64,000 bases of DNA, taken from Acinetobacter kookii. Its GTDB lineage: Bacteria > Pseudomonadota > Gammaproteobacteria > Pseudomonadales > Moraxellaceae. Positions 7,201 to 26,026 of this stretch are shown piece by piece. The stretch lies in NCBI RefSeq assembly GCF_900096895.1, contig NZ_FMYO01000010.1, forward strand, positions 1 through 64,000, written 5' to 3'. Within the stretch, counting starts at the first letter, position 1, and each line of letters begins with the position of its first letter. The position numbers and the translations under genes were made by a program. The notes under the pieces are model-generated. The model was not told the origin of the DNA. It made no database searches and was given only the letters and a program-made list of their open reading frames with translations.

Positions 7201-8661
7201 TTAGTTCAACATTTCCTGATTGCGTTTCATCAGCATCTCCTGATGACGTTTACGCATCCGCGGTTTATACAGGAGCTGATAGGTCACGGCCAAAATAATC
7301 AGCCAAAGCGGACTGATCATCAGGGCACGCAAGGTATCGGCTTCCAGACTTAAAATAATCAAAGTAAAGAATAAAAACACCAGTACCACATACGACATCC
7401 ATATTCCGCCCGGCATTTTAAAAGTGGACTTGGCATGCAGTTCTGGACGCAGTTTACGGTAACGGATATAGCACACCATGATGATGCTCCAGATACTGAT
7501 AAACAAAATCACGCACAGCGAGCTTGCTAAGGTAAAGGCTTCAACCGTATTCGGTACAAAGTATTGTAATGCTGCACCCGCCATAATAAAGGCGCAAGAG
7601 AACAATAAACCTTTGGCAGGTACGGCACGCTTGGACAATTGCGCCAGGTTTTGCGGAGCCTGCCCTTCCCGCGCCAAGCCAAACAGCATACGCGACGTTG
7701 AAAATACACCGCTGTTCATGGAGGACATGACCGATGACAGCACCACCAGGTTCATGATAATCGCTGCTGCACCAATGCCTGCATGCATGAACAGCGACAC
7801 AAAGGGACTTTGATCCGCAGGAATCTGGTTCCATGGGGTCACCGACATCACAATGAACAGCGACAATACATAAAACAGAATAATCCGGGTCGGAATGGCA
7901 TTCACTGCCTTTGGCAAGTTCTTTTCAGGGTCTTGGGTTTCTGCCGCCATGGTTCCGATCAGTTCCACACCCACAAAAGCAAACAAGGCAATCTGGAAAC
8001 CTGCCAGGAAACCGCTGCCACCTTGCGGGAACATGCCGCCATGCGACCAGACATTGCTAAAGCTGGCCAGCGAGCCACCCGGTGCATGAAAATGGTTAAA
8101 CACCATAAATCCGCCAATACCAATCAACCCCAAAATGGCCAAAATCTTGATGAGCGCAAACCAGAATTCAATCTCGCCAAACAGACGTACGGCGAGCATA
8201 TTAATGCCGAGCACCAGCAACACGCAGGCCACGCTGATCATGGCCTGTCCGGATGGGGTAAAGGCCATACCTTCAGGCAGCCAAAAGCCAAGATAGTTGA
8301 TGATGGCAGCCAGATCTGCAATGCCGACCAGCACCCAACCGAGCCAGTATGACCAGCCAATATAATAGCCTGCACCCGGACCAATCAGGTCATGCGCCAT
8401 GTCGATAAAGGATTTGTAGTGCAGGTTAGAGAGTAAAATTTCACCCAATGCGCGCATCAGGAAAAAGAACATGGTACCAATGATCATATAGATCAATAAA
8501 ATTGAAGGCCCAGCCAGGGAGATGGTTTTGCCTGAGCCCATAAAAAGGCCTGTCCCAATCGCGCCACCAATGGCAATCAGTTGCAGGTGACGGTTGGACA
8601 GTTTTCGTTGTAGTTCATGCGATGATGCCTGGGCATCGTCTGCTCGTGGTGTAGTGGTCAT
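7201..8661 (-). CDS. cycA: Amino acid permease, probable D-alanine/D-serine/glycine transporter
   Basis: 486-aa APC-superfamily permease with about 12 membrane helices. Motifs include LSNRHLQLIAIGGAIGTGLF at the start of helix 1, GLFMGSGKTI, and a long ETQDPEKNLPKAVN loop typical of the AAT subfamily. The start at 8661 (MTTTPRADD) has AAAGGA at good distance; an upstream in-frame ATG overlaps that site. Substrate is inferred from similarity to CycA and from the racemase and D-amino-acid dehydrogenase next to it. Last gene of the minus-strand dad cluster. Confidence 0.85.
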   Translation of the reverse strand: MTTTPRADDAQASSHELQRKLSNRHLQLIAIGGAIGTGLFMGSGKTISLAGPSILLIYMIIGTMFFFLMRALGEILLSNLHYKSFIDMAHDLIGPGAGYYIGWSYWLGWVLVGIADLAAIINYLGFWLPEGMAFTPSGQAMISVACVLLVLGINMLAVRLFGEIEFWFALIKILAILGLIGIGGFMVFNHFHAPGGSLASFSNVWSHGGMFPQGGSGFLAGFQIALFAFVGVELIGTMAAETQDPEKNLPKAVNAIPTRIILFYVLSLFIVMSVTPWNQIPADQSPFVSLFMHAGIGAAAIIMNLVVLSSVMSSMNSGVFSTSRMLFGLAREGQAPQNLAQLSKRAVPAKGLLFSCAFIMAGAALQYFVPNTVEAFTLASSLCVILFISIWSIIMVCYIRYRKLRPELHAKSTFKMPGGIWMSYVVLVFLFFTLIILSLEADTLRALMISPLWLIILAVTYQLLYKPRMRKRHQEMLMKRNQEMLN

Positions 8662-11739: not shown

Positions 11740-12204
11740 ATGCGTAAATTAGACCGTATAGATCAGCAGATTCTGGATATTTTGCAGCGCGATGGACGGA
11801 TTGCGATTAGTGAATTGGCATCTCGGGTCAACCTGTCTACCACCCCCTGTTCGGAGCGGGTCAAACGTCTGGAACGCGATGGCATCATCATGGGCTATTA
11901 TGCGCGGCTGAATCCGCAACTGGTCGATCGCAACCTGTTAGTATTTTTAGAAATTAAACTATCTGCAAAATCGGGCGATGTGTTTGATCAGGTGGCACGT
12001 GATTTGGTGGAAATTCCTGAGGTTCTGGAATGTCACCTGATTTCAGGCGAATTTGATTATCTGGTGAAAGCGCGCTTAAAGGAAATGAGTGCCTATCGAC
12101 GTCTGCTCGGCGACTTACTTAAAAAACTTCCCTCCTCCGCTTCCTCACACAGTTACATTGTAATGGAAGAAGTGAAGGAAAGTTTTTATCTGGATCTGCG
12201 TTAA
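11740..12204 (+). CDS. Lrp/AsnC family regulator of alanine catabolism (DadR-like)
   Basis: 154-aa regulator. The helix-turn-helix lies at about residues 20-45 (RIAISELASRVNLSTTPCSE) and a RAM/AsnC ligand-binding domain follows (YLVKARLKEM, ending in VMEEVKESFYLDL). The start at 11740 (MRKLDRIDQQILDIL) is preceded by AAAAGGA; the open frame extends 31 codons upstream but without family similarity. Divergent from dadA, so it is probably the alanine-responsive regulator of the dad cluster. Confidence 0.88.
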   Translation: MRKLDRIDQQILDILQRDGRIAISELASRVNLSTTPCSERVKRLERDGIIMGYYARLNPQLVDRNLLVFLEIKLSAKSGDVFDQVARDLVEIPEVLECHLISGEFDYLVKARLKEMSAYRRLLGDLLKKLPSSASSHSYIVMEEVKESFYLDLR

Positions 12205-18161: not shown

Positions 18162-18542
18162 TTAACTTTTGACTTCATTTTCCCAGTCTTCATCTTCATA
18201 GACATAAGCCATACAGCCCCAGCCATCATATTCACCGCCATATTGCGTCGCGATTTTAGTGAACCATTCTTCCAGATCGACGATGTCTGAATATTCAGGT
18301 TCCATATACACATAAATGGTGATAATCCACTCGACCGTGTCGGCTTCTTCATCTTCAAACAGGCTAATTTTTTGTTCTTCTTTGAGCAGATAAAGTGCAC
18401 ATTTTTGTGCCTGTTCTTCAGTCTGAAAAGCTATGGAAAATTCAATTTCATGCGCTTCAGTCAGGTCGTCGCCATCTTCGGCCATTTGCCAAAGTACATT
18501 ACCATTTTCATCATCGGGGAATTGGTCAAAATCGCGTGTCAT
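18162..18542 (-). CDS. rraB: RraB-like ribonuclease E inhibitor family protein
   Basis: 126-aa very acidic protein matching the RraB (DUF1260) family: FPDDENGNVLWQMAEDGDDL near the N-terminus, EIEFSIAFQTEEQAQKCALYL in the middle and GGEYDGWGCMAYVYEDEDW at the end. RraB binds RNase E and changes its mRNA targets in E. coli; the same function here is inferred from the family. Monocistronic. Confidence 0.82.
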   Translation of the reverse strand: MTRDFDQFPDDENGNVLWQMAEDGDDLTEAHEIEFSIAFQTEEQAQKCALYLLKEEQKISLFEDEEADTVEWIITIYVYMEPEYSDIVDLEEWFTKIATQYGGEYDGWGCMAYVYEDEDWENEVKS

Positions 18543-18702: not shown

Positions 18703-19656
18703 TTAGCCTTCCACCATCTGCTGCTGCAATTCACCTGGCTCATTCGGTTGCTGTGCCTTGAAGGCTGAAACCAGGGCTGCAAGCTTAAACTCTTCCAGAC
18801 GTAACTTTAAAAATGATTCATGAATTCGGGCATGGCTGAATGCTGCTCCATAATGATTGATCAGGATAAAATCATCTTGCAACGCCTGAATAAACAGCCC
18901 CACCGTGTCATGCTCTAATTGAGATAAATACAGGTCAGCCTTGCTGTTAAACACATGCGTAACCAGAGCGATGGCAGAAAGTCTGCGATTTTCCTCGACA
19001 TACTCACATTGACCCACCTTGTTTGCTGCAATGGCATTTTTTATTTTTCGGCGGACTTCTGTTAACTGCTGCGCGGCATGAATATCCTCATAGCCTTCAA
19101 TCAATTGATCCAAAAGGATTTGTGCAGGATACACATATTGAAGGCCATAACCCTGAATCTTGTTTTCCAGTGCTTTTGAAATTGTGGCCAATTTTTCTTG
19201 TTCTACTGCCTGATGATAAAAAGCCCCTAATCGTTCTCTGGCCTGGGCTTCCAGGTTAAGCCGGCTATTTTTTTCCAGTTTTTCCAGATAATGTCGAGTG
19301 TTTTCAATCTCTGCCTTCATTTTTTCCAGCAGAAACTCTGCTTCAGTTTTAGTGGCTTCGACAAAGCTCTCGACCTGGTTTTTTCGCTCTGCAACGTAAT
19401 GCTCAGTATCCAAAACGTCTTGATACTGACTCAACTTTTCAACCCGGTTTTTTAGATTGCCGATCTCGATACGACAGGTATTTAATTGATGGTGCAGCGC
19501 ATCGTTTTGCTGTTCATGCTCTGCCAGATTATTTCGCGTGCGATCCAGATTTACCTGCAAAGATTCCAGAGTGCGCTGTTTTTTTCTTATTTTTATGATT
19601 GCCCGATAAAGCAATCCCACCAAAATGAAGGTGGTCAGGATATATAGATAAAGCAT
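18703..19656 (-). CDS. Membrane-anchored coiled-coil protein with DUF4041-like domain
   Basis: 317-aa protein: one N-terminal membrane helix (about 2-20), a long coiled coil (about 25-150, rich in Glu, Lys, Leu, Gln), then a domain resembling DUF4041 (about 160-300) with KIQGYGLQYVYPAQILLDQL, CEYVEENRRLSAIALVTHVFNSKAD and FILINHYGAAFSHARI. DUF4041 proteins often end in a T5orf172/GIY-YIG-like nuclease domain; here the protein stops after the DUF, with no such domain. Function unknown. No operon partner is evident. Confidence 0.65.
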   Translation of the reverse strand: MLYLYILTTFILVGLLYRAIIKIRKKQRTLESLQVNLDRTRNNLAEHEQQNDALHHQLNTCRIEIGNLKNRVEKLSQYQDVLDTEHYVAERKNQVESFVEATKTEAEFLLEKMKAEIENTRHYLEKLEKNSRLNLEAQARERLGAFYHQAVEQEKLATISKALENKIQGYGLQYVYPAQILLDQLIEGYEDIHAAQQLTEVRRKIKNAIAANKVGQCEYVEENRRLSAIALVTHVFNSKADLYLSQLEHDTVGLFIQALQDDFILINHYGAAFSHARIHESFLKLRLEEFKLAALVSAFKAQQPNEPGELQQQMVEG

Positions 19657-19893
19657 TATTATTATCTCAAAATTATTATTTCGAAGAAAGGTGACACATT
19701 ATTTATTAGTAATATGTTTTTCAATCATTAGAAAAAGGGATATTGTGTGCGATTGGTCGCATTTTTTTATTATTCTTAGATTTTCATCATCATAAATCAG
19801 TTGGCCGACAAGAAGAAGTCAACCCTCATAGCATATATGTAACTTATTATTAAAATTATGGGCCTTTGAATAAGTAAAATTAAAAGATATTGA

Positions 19894-20559
19894 TTAAAAA
19901 GGAATTTTCACCTTAATTTCAACATCTGCTCCGCTTAAAGGCTGTTTAAAAGCCAGATAGCTGGCATGTAAGGCCATACGTTTTAATGGACTCTGGTAGG
20001 GCTCTGGATGATAGAGCTTGTCGCCGGTAATCGGATGGCCGATATACTGCATATGCACCCGCAACTGATGAGAGCGTCCGGTAATCGGGGTCAGCAGTAC
20101 CCGGCTAATGTCTTCCGCTTCAGAATATTCCAAGGCCTGATACAGCGTTCTGGCGGGTTTTCCCAAGTCAAAATGCACGATTTGACGCGGCCGGTTTTCC
20201 CAGTCGGTAATTAATGGCACCTCGACACTCCCCTCGGCTTCGAGCTTGCCTTGAACCAGCGCAATATAGTTTTTTTTGACCGTACGTGCCTGAAACATTT
20301 TACTGACCGCCACTTCTGCTTCACGGTGTTTGGCAAACATCAAAATACCGGAAGTTGCCATATCTAAACGGTGAGTAATTTTAGCGTTGGGATAGCGTTC
20401 CAATACCCGAAAATAAGCACTGTCATGATGTTCAGGCAAACGTCCCGGAACGGACAACAGCCCTGCCGGTTTTTCAATCACCACCAGGTCTTCATCTTCA
20501 TAGACGATGGCAAGCGGTTCCTGAGGCGGCATATACACGAAGTTATCGTTGATGGGCAT
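19894..20559 (-). CDS. rluA: RluA family pseudouridine synthase
   Basis: 221-aa enzyme, near the 219-aa E. coli RluA, which modifies U746 of 23S rRNA and U32 of some tRNAs. The catalytic aspartate is in KITHRLDMATSGIL (about 68-81); the family motifs KPAGLLSVPG, GRSHQLRVHMQYIGHPITGD and RMALHA follow. Start taken at MPINDNFVY (20559); the frame extends 13 codons upstream without similarity. Confidence 0.85.
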   Translation of the reverse strand: MPINDNFVYMPPQEPLAIVYEDEDLVVIEKPAGLLSVPGRLPEHHDSAYFRVLERYPNAKITHRLDMATSGILMFAKHREAEVAVSKMFQARTVKKNYIALVQGKLEAEGSVEVPLITDWENRPRQIVHFDLGKPARTLYQALEYSEAEDISRVLLTPITGRSHQLRVHMQYIGHPITGDKLYHPEPYQSPLKRMALHASYLAFKQPLSGADVEIKVKIPF

Positions 20560-20638
20560 AGCATTACGGCACGTGGGAGAATGCGCGCAAAATAACAATC
20601 TCTGCCAGAGCTGTCAATGCTGGACCATCCCGCCAAAA

Positions 20639-21085
20639 TTATGTCTGCTTCGGTTTTTCCAGCGTGGTTTTATAGCTGTCTTTCAGGGTGTCGAGCTGAC
20701 CATCTAGAAAATGGTTGAGGTAGGCTCTGGCCTGCCCCAGACTGAGCTGTTTAAAAGCCACATAATCCTTGTTTTTTAAAGTGATTAAACCAAACAGGTT
20801 CTTTTGCGGAGTAACAATTTCAATATCGCTGTCCAGCTTGAATGCCAGCTGATCGGAGGCCGAATAGGCATTTAAACTGAGGCGCAGGCATTGCTGGGTA
20901 GCGGTATCGGTTACGGTAAAACTGGTAATGGCCCCATTCATTTCCAGTTGTGAAACCAGTTGGCGGCGCCAGTTGATTGCATCGAATTGGCTCAATATTT
21001 CTGTACTTTCAAATAATCCTAAAGCTTCTGCATCCTGCTCACTCAAGTGCTGTGGATGACGAATTTCCAATTCGTATTTTTTCAT
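20639..21085 (-). CDS. Uncharacterised protein
   Basis: 148-aa soluble-looking protein beginning MKKYELEIRHPQHLSEQDAE. No signal peptide, membrane helix or motif that I recognise. Codon use resembles the neighbouring genes, and the gene ends 79 bases before the rluA start on the same strand, so the frame is probably real and may be cotranscribed with rluA. Confidence 0.6.
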   Translation of the reverse strand: MKKYELEIRHPQHLSEQDAEALGLFESTEILSQFDAINWRRQLVSQLEMNGAITSFTVTDTATQQCLRLSLNAYSASDQLAFKLDSDIEIVTPQKNLFGLITLKNKDYVAFKQLSLGQARAYLNHFLDGQLDTLKDSYKTTLEKPKQT

Positions 21086-21300
21086 TGTTATTGGCTCATG
21101 TTGAAATGATCGAATACCATTCTAGCAAGCGTTTTTTCAGCCGACTATTTTGTTTTTTTATGGAAAATTACTTTATATCAAGTGATCAGTATATTTTTGA
21201 TGATGCAATGCACATTCAGGAGGATAAAATTTGATGCAGGTTAAATAAATGAAAAGAAAAAGAATTGTTATTTTTTATTGTTTATAAAAATTTTGAGGGT

Positions 21301-21525
21301 GTCAGGGAAAACATCTGTGGTTTACTTCAACCATTATAACTTTGTAAATTATAACCCTATGCCTATAAATTGGTAATCTATAGCGTCCTAAGCCGAATCG
21401 AGACCTTGTGGGTAAGTACTGCACTCACGTTGTACGCAACTGGCAGCAATCTGCTCTTTTCGATCCCTTCACACCCTTGAGACATATATTAGCCAAAGGC
21501 AGTTGGGATTAATTTCCTAAGATTT
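21301..21525 (+). ncRNA. Intergenic repeat copy 1, candidate small-RNA gene
   Basis: A 225-base segment nearly identical to 22961-23185. In the core (21362 onward, about 120 bases) only two positions differ. A sigma-70-like promoter is conserved in both: TTGTAA at 21342 and TATAAA at 21364, 16 bases apart, giving a start near 21376. No open frame is conserved. The predicted RNA has short stems such as GTTG-TACG-CAAC, but no clear terminator. It lies in the 602-base gap 21086-21687. Strand is inferred from the promoter. Confidence 0.55.
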
Positions 21526-21687
21526 TTAATTTTCCATTAATTTTGGTAATTTTTTTCTTTAAATAAATAATTAAAAGAATTTTTTATCATCCACATTAAA
21601 ATAAAGGTTTTTTATTGCAGAAAAAGCAGGATTATTGGAATTTATCCATAAATCAAAGCACATTTTTCTTGTGCCTTGTTGCCCCAT

Positions 21688-22401
21688 TCAATCAGCCAGA
21701 TAATAATCAACGGTGGACACCACACGGACTTTCTTTAAATACGGGGTATTGCTGTCGCGATCCTCAATGCTGAACAATCCCTGATTGGCCGCCTTGATTT
21801 TGCCTAGACGGCTTTTGGAATCTGCGGCAAATTTTTCTGCCACACTGCGGGCGTTTTGGGTTGCCTGCTCAATCATGGCCGGCTTGATGTCATTTAACTT
21901 GGTAAATAAATATTCGGTTCGTTGACCTGAATCATCGCCACCAAAGGCAATGCCCTTTTTACCCAAAGCCACCAGACGGCTTTGTGCCGCCCGCACTGCA
22001 TCTATTTTATGGGTATAAACGGTAATGGTCTGATGCGCGGTATAACGGAGCGCGACATTGGCATCGCCGCCGTATTGCTGGGCATATTTATCGGTCGTGA
22101 CAGGAGCTGCCGTAGTAATTTCCTGAGCGCTAAAACCTTCGGTTTTTAAAAACGCCTGAATTTGTTGGGTTTGTATTTCCATAGTGTCATACAGCTGGGT
22201 CAGGTCCTGACTGGCCGAGCTAAAACGGATCGGCCATACTGCGACATCGGCTTTCACCTCTCGTTCAGATAGACCTTTGACCGAGACTATACGTTCATAC
22301 TGCTTGATTTTGACTGCACTACTGCCCAGAATCCATCCCGCAAGAATCATCCCCAGACAAATGAAAGCACCTAAAACCAGTGCGGACTTGAATTGATTCA
22401 T
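21688..22401 (-). CDS. SIMPL domain (DUF541) protein
   Basis: 237-aa protein with an N-terminal membrane helix (about 9-30) and a periplasmic SIMPL domain: ERIVSVKGLSEREVKADVAVWPI, YDTMEIQTQQIQAFL, and the C-terminal VRVVSTVDYYLAD. The family (E. coli YggE and relatives) is linked to oxidative stress, with no fixed activity. It lies between the two 225-bp repeats. Confidence 0.85.
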   Translation of the reverse strand: MNQFKSALVLGAFICLGMILAGWILGSSAVKIKQYERIVSVKGLSEREVKADVAVWPIRFSSASQDLTQLYDTMEIQTQQIQAFLKTEGFSAQEITTAAPVTTDKYAQQYGGDANVALRYTAHQTITVYTHKIDAVRAAQSRLVALGKKGIAFGGDDSGQRTEYLFTKLNDIKPAMIEQATQNARSVAEKFAADSKSRLGKIKAANQGLFSIEDRDSNTPYLKKVRVVSTVDYYLAD

Positions 22402-22531
22402 GCTCCCGAATTCCTCTTTTGCTTATTTTTTATAGCAGTGGTCCTGTTTTATCAGCTTCGAAACCACTGTTTACAGACGATCTATCTATATCGACCTTTC
22501 TATATCAACCATTTCAATCCTCCAATCCGGC

Positions 22532-22783
22532 CTAGGAATTTCGGATCAGATATAAGGCCAGAAATGGCACCAGATTAAGCAATAGAATGCCAATTTTATA
22601 TACGGCCATACCCCCATAATGAATGGCATCGAAGGTGTGATCGGAAAGCTGGAACCATTTGCCATGCACCTGTTTCATCCAGTTACGGGCAAAAATAAAC
22701 ACCAAAAACCAGATCATTAAGATGATGTAATTTATAAGTAATGAACACAGTAAAAAACGGCTCCAAAAATCATCATTTATCAT
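22532..22783 (-). CDS. Small membrane protein, DUF6868-like
   Basis: 83-aa protein with two hydrophobic segments (about 8-30 and 58-80) and the pattern W-x-x-x-x-HGKWFQLSDHTFDAIHYGGMA between them, which I recognise from a small membrane protein family in gamma-proteobacteria (DUF6868). Function unknown. Upstream of the SIMPL gene on the same strand. Confidence 0.7.
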   Translation of the reverse strand: MINDDFWSRFLLCSLLINYIILMIWFLVFIFARNWMKQVHGKWFQLSDHTFDAIHYGGMAVYKIGILLLNLVPFLALYLIRNS

Positions 22784-22960
22784 TTTTATGACCTGACCGG
22801 ATGCTTGCTTATATATTCTAAATTAGCAGATTTTATGAAGGAAAATGAACAACTGATTTGTATCCGCTTTTTTGCAGTTAAATTTAAAACCATGTATTTG
22901 TTTTTAATAATTTTTATAATGTTTTTTAATACTTGTCTTGGCTGGAGAATTTTTTAGGGG

Positions 22961-23185
22961 GTCAGGGAAAACATACTGTTTTACTTCAACCATTATAACT
23001 TTGTAAGTTATAACCTTATGCCTATAAATTGATAATCTATAGCGTCCTAAGCCGAATCGAGACCTTGTGGGTAAGTACTGCACTCACGTTGTACGCAACT
23101 GGCAGCAATCTACTCTTTTCGATCCCTTCACACCCTTGAGATATAGAATAACCAAAGAAATGCGGGATTAATTTCCTAAGATTTT
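22961..23185 (+). ncRNA. Intergenic repeat copy 2, candidate small-RNA gene
   Basis: Second copy of the repeat at 21301-21525, same orientation, 1.66 kb away. TTGTAA at 23001 and TATAAA at 23023 are again 16 bases apart. The most conserved block runs from the -10 box to CACCCTTGAGA at about 23141, with divergence on either side, as expected if the transcribed part is under selection. It lies in the 573-base gap 22784-23356; the rest of that gap is AT-rich without features. Confidence 0.55.
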
Positions 23186-23356
23186 GCATTTTTAATTATT
23201 TTTGGAATATTTTCCCGCTTTATTCAAATCTATAAAAAAATTTCCCAAATTGATGCAAAATACCGATTTTTATTGCGCCAAACTGACATGAACCGGAATA
23301 TTTTCTCCATCTTCATGAACTGGAGTACTAAAACTTACCTTTCAGCTCCCTAGCCG

Positions 23357-24058
23357 CTATTTCTTCTTGGTCATTTCCGCCAGCAAATCCAGTTGAATTT
23401 CCTGAATTTTAGCCAGACGATCCCACTGATGCATTAAAAGATGATCGAGTTTTTCATGTAAATGCCGAATCTCCAGTTCAGCTTTCAAGTTGACCTGATA
23501 ATCATTTTGCGAACGCAAGCGGTCTTTGGCTTCCTGCCGGTTTTGGCTCATCATGATTACGGGTGCCTGAATGGCGGCCAAACAGGAGAGCATTAAATTT
23601 AATAAAATAAAGGGATATGGATCTGCTGGATGTTTCACCATGACCACGGTATTGACCAAAATCCACAGCGCCAAGAAAATGGCAAAGCAGATCAAAAAGG
23701 TCCAGCTACCGCCGAAACTTGCAATTTTATCGGCCAGTTTTTCTCCAAAAGTCCAATTCTGATCGAGCTTGTTCTCTATATTTTTGCTGATCAGCTCATG
23801 CTGTTGCATACTGTTCAACACTTCATATTCCAGATCAGTGACTTCACCTTGTTCAGATTTTAATATGGACTGTACATACTGCATGCGGTATTTGGTTAAA
23901 TCGACCTGGCAGATAAAGTCGCCAGGTGACCATTGTGGAAAATCCTTTGAAATTTCCTCGGTAATGACTTTTCGAATTGTTCCGATCGGGATAAGATTTT
24001 TTTTAGGAAAGCTTTTCTTGCAGACCATGCATGTTTGACATTCTGTTTTTCCGTTCAT
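23357..24058 (-). CDS. DUF1003 membrane protein with N-terminal Cys motif
   Basis: 233-aa protein. The N-terminus has CQTCMVCKKSF (about 7-17), a possible metal-binding cysteine cluster. The DUF1003 part covers about 100-215: GEKLADKIASFGGSWTFLICF (helix 1), NLMLSCLAAIQAPVIMMSQNRQ (helix 2), then the charged RLRSQNDYQVNLKAELEIRHLHEKLD. Function unknown. Confidence 0.85.
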   Translation of the reverse strand: MNGKTECQTCMVCKKSFPKKNLIPIGTIRKVITEEISKDFPQWSPGDFICQVDLTKYRMQYVQSILKSEQGEVTDLEYEVLNSMQQHELISKNIENKLDQNWTFGEKLADKIASFGGSWTFLICFAIFLALWILVNTVVMVKHPADPYPFILLNLMLSCLAAIQAPVIMMSQNRQEAKDRLRSQNDYQVNLKAELEIRHLHEKLDHLLMHQWDRLAKIQEIQLDLLAEMTKKK

Positions 24059-24329
24059 ACCCCATACCTTCTGTTTTATCTCTATGCAATATGCCGTGAT
24101 GATGATTTCCGAGTCTAATCAACGCTTATTGGTTTACATTTTGCCAGGGAAAGCTTGGTTTTAGATTAATTCAGTTCCATATTTTTAGATTAATTTTAAA
24201 GCAAGCATCCAGCAATTTTTAAGATGCATGTGCCAGACTCTAATGCCTATAGCCGTTAAACCGTTATTCCGTTTATGGATGAACAAACAAAAATTTAAAG
24301 CAAAGACCAGCTTAAAATTCCACTGCCAT

Positions 24330-24614
24330 TTACCGGACATAGAGCTGTTTCACATGGTGATTGATATAGGCATTTAGACCATCGCCATACTGCGCCAGCT
24401 GTTTCATGTTTTCAATATGCTGATAGCCGGCACTGGCATAGCTATAGGTATAAATTTTTGAATTTTTCTTAAATTGAACACGAATAAACTCATTGCCAAT
24501 TTCATAGTTGGCCACACCAGAGTCGTGGTTCAGATCAAGATAATGTTGCAATTGAGCCGCCCTAAACACAGTAAATATAGAGTTTAAGATGAGGGTGTAT
24601 TGAGCATTTTTCAA
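24330..24614 (-). CDS. Uncharacterised 94-aa protein
   Basis: Begins MKNAQYTLILNSIFTVF and holds GYQHIENMKQLAQYGDGLNAYINHHVKQLY at its end. The internal pattern (ANYEIGNEFIRVQFKKNSKIYTYSYAS) has the look of a small alpha/beta protein, but I recognise no family. The codon pattern is plausible. The 271 bases between it and the DUF1003 gene hold nothing I can name. Confidence 0.5.
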   Translation of the reverse strand: MKNAQYTLILNSIFTVFRAAQLQHYLDLNHDSGVANYEIGNEFIRVQFKKNSKIYTYSYASAGYQHIENMKQLAQYGDGLNAYINHHVKQLYVR

Positions 24615-24757
24615 ACAACGCCCAATAATCAGTCCGTAGATGAATGGGGAGCGATTTTTATTCGTTATTTATTCCTATCTATTTATATTTATTCAAAAAA
24701 CTGATTTATGATGGAAACATTTTAGTGTTTCGTAGCGAAATCAATCATCAACCCAAT

Positions 24758-24787
24758 AAAAAAACTCTGCCAATCGGGCAGAGTTTT
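24758..24787 (-). terminator. Terminator after the 68-aa gene
   Basis: AAACTCTGCC-AATC-GGGCAGAGTTT with flanking A and T runs, 18 bases beyond the stop at 24805. Confidence 0.8.
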
Positions 24788-24804
24788 TCGGTTTCAGCTT
24801 TGAA

Positions 24805-25011
24805 TTATTTTGTACAGCACTTGCTACAACCTTCCACTTTTTCTGTTGGCCAGTTCATTCTGGCGCGTTTATAGGCAAGTTCATAATTTGCAAAGTAGCC
24901 AATCAAAATCTGGTCATCCGATTTTGGCAGGTCTTCGCAGCCCAGTGTCGCATTGTGTATATAGTGTATGCCTTTAGCTGCAGGCTGTTCATCTACAATA
25001 AATTTGATCAT
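24805..25011 (-). CDS. Uncharacterised 68-aa protein with Cys-rich tail
   Basis: Begins MIKFIVDEQPAAKGIHYIHN and ends GCSKCCTK. A conserved-looking segment, LPKSDDQILIGYFANYELAYKRAR, precedes the cysteine cluster, which could bind metal. The good terminator directly downstream supports a real gene. No family recognised. Confidence 0.6.
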   Translation of the reverse strand: MIKFIVDEQPAAKGIHYIHNATLGCEDLPKSDDQILIGYFANYELAYKRARMNWPTEKVEGCSKCCTK

Positions 25012-25327
25012 TGATAGTTCCCCGAATAATTTTTATAAAGTTGAACCACAAACAAACCCATATAAAATTTATGGGTTTAATTCCATATTAAAATTATGCC
25101 TTTATTGAGTAAAAATCAATCACTAGTTTTAATGATCTACATCTTTTTTTCTTATTTTTTTTATTTTTATATAAAACAGCGGCTTATTTCTAAATTCTAT
25201 TTGACTGGGCAAAATCAAGACAGAGCTTTCCGCAAGCTTATGACTCGGGTACGGCTAAGGAAAATAAATATTGTGAATAAAGAGCAGCTCAATCAAATGA
25301 CCTCAACCTGATGCAAACCCCATACAT
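25012..25327. other. Geneless AT-rich stretch
   Basis: Only a doubtful plus-strand frame (25096-25311, Phe/Tyr/Lys-rich, no family, no ribosome site) is present. I see no structured element. Confidence 0.5.
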
Positions 25328-25906
25328 TCATAGCACCGGACTATTGATATTGTCCTGTTTCTTACGGCGTACCCAGCGCACAACCCACACCATCAACAGC
25401 AATACAACAATCACCACCAGCACAGGTACAAGCAAGGACAGAACGGACAGTACAAATGCCCCAATCCATTCCCCTGTAGACACCACAGGGTTGGCGATTC
25501 CACCCGTTGTTGCAGTTGATACGCCACGAACAGCCACCGTACTTAATTGAACTGCACTTGCGGTACCGCCACCGACAATAATCGCGGCCGCCCAGCTGGC
25601 AAACTGCGACATTTCCCCACTGCTCACTGCCATGGTTGCCAAGGTTCCGGCGATCAGTGCTGCGGGTGTTGCCACCGTGTCCAGGGCATTGTCTACCCAA
25701 GGAATATAATAAGCAGCAATTTCACTCAGGGTTGCAATACCTAAAGCCATGCAGACAGATGGCAGTGCCAGCCATTCAAAGCCTTGCATTGGCTCAAACC
25801 AGCCCATGAGAGATGCAATACTCATCACCAATAGTGGCACAAAGACACGAAAACCGCAGGCAGCACTTAAGCCCACGCCTATGCATAAACCGAGTATTGT
25901 TTCCAT
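25328..25906 (-). CDS. DUF4126 membrane protein
   Basis: 192-aa protein with four to five hydrophobic segments. The family pattern is clear: LGLCIGVGLSAACGFRVFVPLLVMS at the N-terminus, AAYYIPWVDNALDTVATPAALIAGTL, then GGGTASAVQLSTVAVRG and NPVVSTGEW. The C-terminus is a long hydrophobic helix followed by RWVRRKKQD. Function unknown. Start taken at METILGLC; a Met two codons upstream is also possible. Confidence 0.85.
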   Translation of the reverse strand: METILGLCIGVGLSAACGFRVFVPLLVMSIASLMGWFEPMQGFEWLALPSVCMALGIATLSEIAAYYIPWVDNALDTVATPAALIAGTLATMAVSSGEMSQFASWAAAIIVGGGTASAVQLSTVAVRGVSTATTGGIANPVVSTGEWIGAFVLSVLSLLVPVLVVIVVLLLMVWVVRWVRRKKQDNINSPVL

Positions 25907-25960
25907 GTGCATTTCCTTTTATGGCTTGAATTTATTGCGGCGCTTTAAAATGAAAGTAAC

Positions 25961-25990
25961 AAAAAAGCCCTATGGATGAATAGGGCTTTT
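25961..25990. terminator. Terminator between DUF4126 and the zinc-ribbon gene
   Basis: AGCCCTAT-GGATGA-ATAGGGCT between A and T runs. On the minus strand it follows the zinc-ribbon gene stop by 37 bases. Confidence 0.75.
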
Positions 25991-26026
25991 GTTCAAAACA
26001 GAGGATAACTGTTTTATAGGTGCTGC

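Follow-up and report, generated by a model that had tools for sequence, protein, structure and literature searches.

Some mRNA leaders, of the riboswitch-like or the protein-binding kind, are also found as RNAs that stand free of any gene. Among the small RNAs (sRNAs) described in Acinetobacter, the Group 1 C4-like sRNAs of A. baumannii have 21 members related to phage C4 RNA, according to the accessible part of the source (PMC5320573). AbcR200, encoded at omt/orf72, has a promoter controlled by Lrp, again according to the part of the paper at hand (PMC11869524).

Here a pair of direct repeats from Acinetobacter kookii was analysed (RefSeq assembly GCF_900096895.1, contig NZ_FMYO01000010.1, positions 1 to 64 000; this whole stretch of 64 000 nucleotides is called the window). 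By sequence comparison, the repeats almost certainly encode a structured RNA family of ~190 nt on the minus strand. It is probably an undescribed, genus-restricted family of regulatory RNAs, with a cis leader form and a free-standing form that probably acts in trans.

Repeat pair and distribution

The repeats lie at 21301-21525 (copy 1) and 22961-23185 (copy 2) in direct orientation, 1659 bp apart. The original prediction had described them as near-identical and equally oriented, placed between unrelated genes, with a core of about 120 bases differing at two sites and with neither transposon ends nor a conserved reading frame. This description was confirmed: the copies are 91% identical over 237 ungapped bases (93% by BLAST), columns 79-203 of the pairwise alignment (about 125 bases) contain two differences, and no inverted repeats were reported in 19000-26000. 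The genes around the repeats are unrelated and all on the minus strand (DUF1003, DUF6868, SIMPL, an unassigned gene of 148 aa, an RluA-type pseudouridine synthase and RraB). A BLAST search of the whole genome (3.09 Mb, 22 contigs), which had been proposed for counting the copies, reached E≤0.001 with these two only. Minus-strand frames of 40 and 59 aa are present at the RNA copies and are not kept among the homologues; a small protein gene was rejected on the basis of many homologues with TAG directly after the GTG start and of one-base gaps in the alignment (by eye).

The conserved unit is offset from the stated range of the repeats and consists of the minus-strand RNA and of conserved upstream DNA beyond it. 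The RNAs and their usual co-oriented neighbours are as follows; the RNA ends are those of the covariance model R2 rather than mapped transcript ends.

21292-21481, minus strand: RNA of copy 1, class A, free-standing; R2, 201.8 bits; 5' end about 21481, 3' end about 21292
22952-23140, minus strand: RNA of copy 2, class A, free-standing; R2, 202.2 bits
19894-20598, minus strand: RluA-type pseudouridine synthase gene (Pfam PF00849), usual co-oriented downstream neighbour
18162-18542, minus strand: RraB-type gene (Pfam PF06877), usual neighbour further along

Class A comprises the free-standing loci of this kind, and class B the form that lies just upstream of an Lrp/AsnC-type regulator gene; divergent copies away from class A loci were found with a first model, R1. 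R1 was built from class A, and R2 from class A and class B; the E-values of both are rough (short calibration), and searches over 40 genomes were filtered more strictly, with loss of weak matches. BLAST searching with copy 1 matched 160 of 175 Acinetobacter genomes, well beyond what chance would give, and R2 found the RNA in 169 of the same 175; no R2 match was obtained in G019, G061, G100, G129, G147 and G148. G061 is a complete 4.2-Mb Acinetobacter genome. In a sample of the family, R1 matched 121 of 299 genomes, all within 1 genus of 16, and in a sample of the order R2 matched 3 of 390 genomes within 1 genus of 142, which was Acinetobacter. An exact 31-base core pattern hit 102 stretches in a named genome collection; among the 80 matches listed, 79 were from Acinetobacter and one from a Myroides metagenome-assembled genome (MAG). 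That contig (JAHAYQ010000241.1) carries a class A RNA of 206 bits and is probably a misbinned Acinetobacter sequence. The family has so far been found only in Acinetobacter, and on the genomes searched this distribution is well supported.

Covariance modelling, the other check that had been proposed, yielded a genus-wide family by our own model and no match at the RNA in Rfam 15. At the gathering cut-off there were 0 Rfam 15 matches in the window, and with permissive settings the stretch 21250-23300 and 8 loci yielded sub-threshold Rfam matches only, none of them convincing at the RNA.

Fold and strand of the RNA

Homologue collection gave 123 matches in 91 loci, which were reduced to 105 distinct sequences and to 60 that are mutually <95% identical. 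These 60 sequences were aligned by using MAFFT (alignment A2), and 45 pairs were predicted. In A2, 98.8% of the cells are paired and 18 of the 45 pairs have changed on both sides; there are 100 cells with two-sided changes, compared with 24.2 in shuffles. None of 500 shuffled alignments was as high on any measure, and structures slid along the alignment reached ≤43.7%, although part of this margin over the slid structures is inherent, because the pairs were both predicted and counted on A2. Compensatory changes beyond both shuffled and slid controls are what was found here, as for a structured non-coding RNA. The shuffles, together with a separate alignment of 20 class B sequences, are better evidence for the fold than the slid controls: the class B alignment gave 21 pairs, 7 of them with two-sided changes, and recovered P1, P2, the base of P3 and P4a.

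In the predicted layout, P1 and P2 close the molecule, P3 bears two hairpins and P4 bears two more (P4a and P4b); a short AAAC/GUUU hairpin close to the 3' end, P5, was recognised by eye only. The elements needed below, all on copy 1, are:

21471-21477, minus strand: 5' arm of closing stem P1, from the single-sequence fold; partner 21296-21302
21296-21302, minus strand: 3' arm of closing stem P1, from the single-sequence fold and pair counts
21363-21383, minus strand: hairpin P4a (helix 8); its plus-strand arm contains TATAAA
21333-21356, minus strand: hairpin P4b (helices 9 and 10); its plus-strand loop contains TTGTAA

Two of the three P1 pairs in the counted structure (helix 1) have two-sided changes, as have 5 of the 6 counted pairs of P4b. 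Folding of single sequences is no more than modestly special: the two copies have z values of -2.42 and -1.58, another cut of the minus strand has -0.41 and a plus-strand stretch has +0.63.

The strand was assigned by comparing both readings of the same alignment. With identical trimmed columns, the RNAalifold energies were -75.4 (minus strand) and -57.6 (plus strand), and on A2 they were -72.9 and -58.4, respectively; a first plus-strand fold of the whole alignment had yielded a poor value (-6.0). RNA tolerates G-U pairs, which appear as A-C cells when the complementary strand is read. The minus-strand structure of A2 contains 407 G-U and 13 A-C cells, whereas the plus-strand structure contains 172 and 144, and this difference places the RNA on the minus strand. 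Judged from its sequence, the repeat evolves as an RNA of the minus strand, and this strand is well supported.

A small RNA of the plus strand, started from TTGTAA-16-TATAAA, had been the original prediction, and in that form it is very improbable. The motif is indeed kept in both copies (in copy 1 at 21342-21347 and 21364-21369), and plus-strand stems are not absent, since 92.0% of the cells are standard in the plus structure compared with 96.9% in the minus structure; the complement of a folded RNA is expected to show such stems. The excess of G-U over A-C cells that marks the minus strand is nearly lost on the plus strand. The two boxes are the loop of P4b and an arm of P4a, that is, parts of two predicted minus-strand hairpins with two-sided changes, and as a promoter the motif is not supported. 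A promoter scan gave 7 sites, compared with 8.2 in shuffles, and TTGTAA-16-TATAAA was not among them. Probes designed for the plus strand would miss the transcript.

The view of the repeats as paralogous small RNAs gains support from the covariation and from the genus-wide conservation, whereas the strand, the promoter and the link to a reported multi-copy family are not retained from that interpretation. The fold is well supported, as are strand and distribution; transcription, partner and target of the RNA are what we infer.

Free-standing copies: upstream DNA, neighbourhood and movement

The regions upstream of the RNA were compared for conservation, 53 of them from class A and 20 from class B. 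G/A-tract elements lie near -106 and -76 at fixed spacing in both classes; near -40, class A carries TTAGGAAATTAATCCC and class B AGGGAAAAnATTT, and a TAnnnT hexamer precedes the CTCAAGGG or TCAGGG start. In the window, the corresponding elements are:

21505-21521, minus strand: upstream element CTTAGGAAATTAATCCC of copy 1, about -40 to -24; conserved over the 53 class A regions
23164-23180, minus strand: upstream element CTTAGGAAATTAATCCC of copy 2; conserved over the 53 class A regions
21486-21491, minus strand: candidate -10 box TAATAT of copy 1, TAnnnT pattern, by eye from aligned upstream regions
23145-23150, minus strand: candidate -10 box TATTCT of copy 2, by eye from aligned upstream regions
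21548-21557, minus strand: distal A-tract element GAAAAAAATT of copy 1, the G/A-tract near -76 of both classes

No -35 box is recognisable before the candidate -10 boxes, and a consensus scan detected no sigma-70 consensus promoter at the proposed starts. The exact upstream element occurs in this genome at the two RNA genes only, from which the pattern was taken. A wider regulon defined by this element was rejected: at ≤3 mismatches it was found in 8 places, compared with 13 for a reversed-pattern control. Nor is the element put forward as an Lrp-like operator on the basis of the general consensus.

Class A loci were compared at 61 places. The neighbourhood is fixed in most of them and the RNA is often tandemly duplicated; co-oriented genes of the RluA-type family (57 members) and of the RraB family (50 members) accompany it. 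The genes between the RNA and RluA/RraB differ, and the next gene varies among species. No shared short open reading frame was found downstream of class A; ten loci were flagged, several of them through a left-edge slicing fault. A cis-acting riboswitch was set aside for class A on these two grounds, that is, no constant downstream gene and no shared small ORF.

Nearby duplication was seen in at least 23 genomes with two copies, and the copies are sisters in the tree in 8 of these genomes, which indicates either that duplication has happened more than once or that conversion is acting. In genome G082, 375 bases are common to two of the copies (97.9% identity); they extend from about 155 bases upstream to about 34 bases past the RNA, with no further shared sequence within 600 bases on each side. 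One comparable block is shared in each of three further paralogue pairs, and a fourth pair has such a block and an extra match of 42 bases. Shared blocks with sharp borders point to the promoter region and the RNA together as the moving unit.

Dispersed copies of promoter and RNA were also observed, three per genome, in G082 (L138 and L139) and in G017 (L135-L137). A very AT-rich copy (25% GC, 84 bits) was observed at 8275-8469 on the minus strand of locus L124, amid long ORFs, and is unlike the other classes.

Dispersed copies in a few genomes, a common unit and sharp borders would also fit a mobile or other DNA element, such as a MITE, a phage or plasmid repeat or protein-binding DNA. This reading is hardly credible in view of the fixed neighbourhood in most loci, the presence of two copies only in the A. 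kookii genome, the RNA-type covariation and terminal inverted repeats, of which none were reported. The exact 31-base core occurred in 0 viral contigs, and matches to the RNA in the collections of mobile DNA were limited to three plasmid records and two phage records that resemble bacterial chromosome. One of these, NZ_CP104448.1 (4.09 Mb, filed as a plasmid), looks like a chromosome because it carries dnaA and the SRP RNA. The 128-kb contig CAKLQF020000013.1, filed as a phage contig, has chromosomal Acinetobacter genes near the RNA and looks mislabelled.

The proposed leader form, possible roles and known systems

Class B is associated with a gene of the Lrp/AsnC-type regulator family (Pfam AsnC_trans_reg, 1.3e-18), designated h0. 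This gene directly follows an RNA in 14 of the 20 secondary loci that were fetched, and conversely R2 finds the RNA at 14 of 21 h0 loci, both sets being hand-chosen rather than random so that these fractions are not genus frequencies. The distance from RNA to h0 is 34-90 nt in most of the listed cases. Seven of the 21 h0 loci are without the RNA, among them that of the A. kookii genome itself (G000:C14:46008-46475). Upstream of this h0, GGAAAATATTTTC and GTGAAAAATAAATAATTG were observed, which resemble the upstream elements of the RNA, a resemblance that may be due to chance because the genome is so AT-rich. The window contains a second Lrp/AsnC-type gene at 11746-12171 on the plus strand, ~29% identical to h0.

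Orthologues of h0 (best E below 1e-67) are present in 172 of the 175 genomes. G147 and G148 have neither h0 (E 9.7e-11 and no match, respectively) nor the RNA, and G162 has the RNA and no close h0; 4 of the 6 genomes without detected RNA, including G061, keep h0. Seven of the small-genome species that were fetched (G003, G005, G009, G057, G069, G079 and G144) have a single R2 match each and carry the RNA upstream of h0; they therefore appear to have class B alone. In G046 (L134, 7390-8678), three tandem copies were observed before h0, the last of which overlaps a 119-aa ORF call.

In class B, the interval that separates the RNA from h0 shows a tendency to base-pair with the start region of that gene. 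For class B (n=26) the median p was 0.086, with 4 of 26 below 0.05 and a Fisher value of 7e-7, which overstates the case because class B rows are related by descent. For h0 loci without RNA (n=8, a set that includes L134, which has the RNA) the median p was 0.70 and the Fisher value 0.90. One row, L259, was left out of this comparison because of a parsing fault. The pairing probability of the Shine-Dalgarno (SD) sequence was 0.66 in class B versus 0.57 in shuffles, and 0.48 versus 0.53 in ten controls, three of which (L134, L142 and L266) in fact have the RNA.

These observations suggest that class B is a cis-acting leader, which we consider fairly probable. As the 5' leader of h0 mRNA it would control translation of the regulator, with the folded domain as sensor and the start-pairing sequence that follows as output. 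The whole account, in which class A consists of tandem structured-RNA genes acting in trans and class B of cis leaders, has in our judgement an even chance of being right. Class A would bind and titrate the factor that reads the leader; this could be a ligand or an RNA-binding protein, either the regulator or a different one, and repeated duplication would serve dosage. That titration is the job of class A is conceivable, though doubtful.

The main rival to this account is that class A is a base-pairing sRNA of the Hfq type, which acts on mRNAs through an exposed seed, while the closeness of class B to h0 would be a coincidence. The free-standing, duplicated, intergenic and conserved copies agree with such an RNA, as do the candidate seeds, the CUUACAAAG loop and parts of GUUGAAGUAAAC, which are nearly invariant. 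It is nevertheless unlikely. Two features disfavour it: a consensus scan, the only method applied here, predicted no intrinsic terminator with a U-tract on the minus strand at the 3' ends, 21292 and 22952, and most of the conserved sequence lies inside the compact closed fold. Pairing of class A in trans with the h0 mRNA did not exceed shuffles in a crude duplex test of five pairs against the h0 start, this being the single target (p 0.38 to 0.63; an insensitive test of the full-length RNA).

Class A might instead consist of stranded leaders, either cis elements of the gene that is now downstream or decaying class B remnants devoid of function. In almost every one of the 61 loci, co-oriented genes do follow class A, and class B shows the leader arrangement. 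This explanation is improbable. The next gene of class A differs between species, the upstream region of class A is conserved too, and decay is at odds with an RNA that is present in 169 of 175 genomes. Class A is also the better conserved of the two classes, with R1 scores of about 180 to 221 bits for most class A copies and about 77 to 150 bits for class B, although R1 is a model built on class A.

A more specific form of the preferred account, of trans-acting class A and leader class B, combines an autogenous leader sensor on the mRNA of a feast/famine (Lrp/AsnC-type) regulator with a tandem decoy that was freed from it, has a promoter of its own and acts in trans; the decoy would set how active the regulator is, or else the factor by which the leader is read. 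We regard this form as rather unlikely. If true, a global nutrient regulator would be overlaid by RNA-based control that is peculiar to Acinetobacter. Should leader and free-standing forms share a partner, they would provide a natural cis/trans pair of one RNA domain for finding what the domain binds. A fold of ~190 nt in 169 of 175 sampled genomes with no Rfam 15 family would be a conspicuous annotation gap in a genus with important hospital pathogens and the standard laboratory species A. baylyi.

The RNA was compared with published sRNAs by using their probe and primer sequences and their positions. Nine published sRNA oligonucleotides scored within the shuffled range, while a positive control scored 103. 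In A. baumannii NZ_CP104448, the model has a single match, on the strand opposite to dnaA and about 116 kb upstream of that gene. The genome of strain AB5075 is presumably numbered from dnaA, and the position match to its sRNA list rests on this assumption. In Table 1 of the part of the AB5075 study at hand (PMC5320573), no reverse-strand sRNA is placed above 3,783,311, the interval that matches the RNA, an absence that is weak because the SRP landmark fits poorly. Its absence from that table suggests that the RNA may be expressed weakly or not at all during exponential growth in LB, or may have been missed. ABUWs019 was rejected as a positional landmark, as it is listed there as a Group 1 C4-like RNA. 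The RNA appeared in none of the papers found by a literature search, as far as their accessible text extends (including PMC11472050, PMC12802169, PMC5538643, PMC3976366 and PMC12478604); the main primary-transcriptome study of ATCC 17978 was outside this search and may number the RNA.

The Group 1 C4-like sRNAs resemble the present RNA in being a multi-member sRNA family of Acinetobacter, and the original prediction had pointed to multi-copy families in Acinetobacter transcriptomes. The identification with Group 1 is not supported: 21 members are given in the accessible part of the source, compared with one R1 match for the RNA in A. baumannii NZ_CP104448, and the published probe for member ABUWs042 does not match the RNA. 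AbcR200, as described in the part of its source at hand, is likewise an sRNA of Acinetobacter with a link to a regulator of the Lrp type, but it is encoded at another locus (omt/orf72), and two oligonucleotides published for it do not match the RNA. Known 6S RNA (RF00013) is alike in its similar length and in being genus-wide, free-standing and structured; it was rejected as an identification, as the window is without an RF00013 match and the 6S RNA of this genome is found elsewhere (G000:C10:92384-92567, 97 bits, above cut-off). From riboswitch-like or protein-binding mRNA leaders the RNA differs in that class A has no consistent downstream gene and the family no Rfam match. Its likeness to them lies in the compact closed domain with invariant stretches and in the setting of class B, in front of a regulator gene and with sequence after the domain that tends to pair with the start region.
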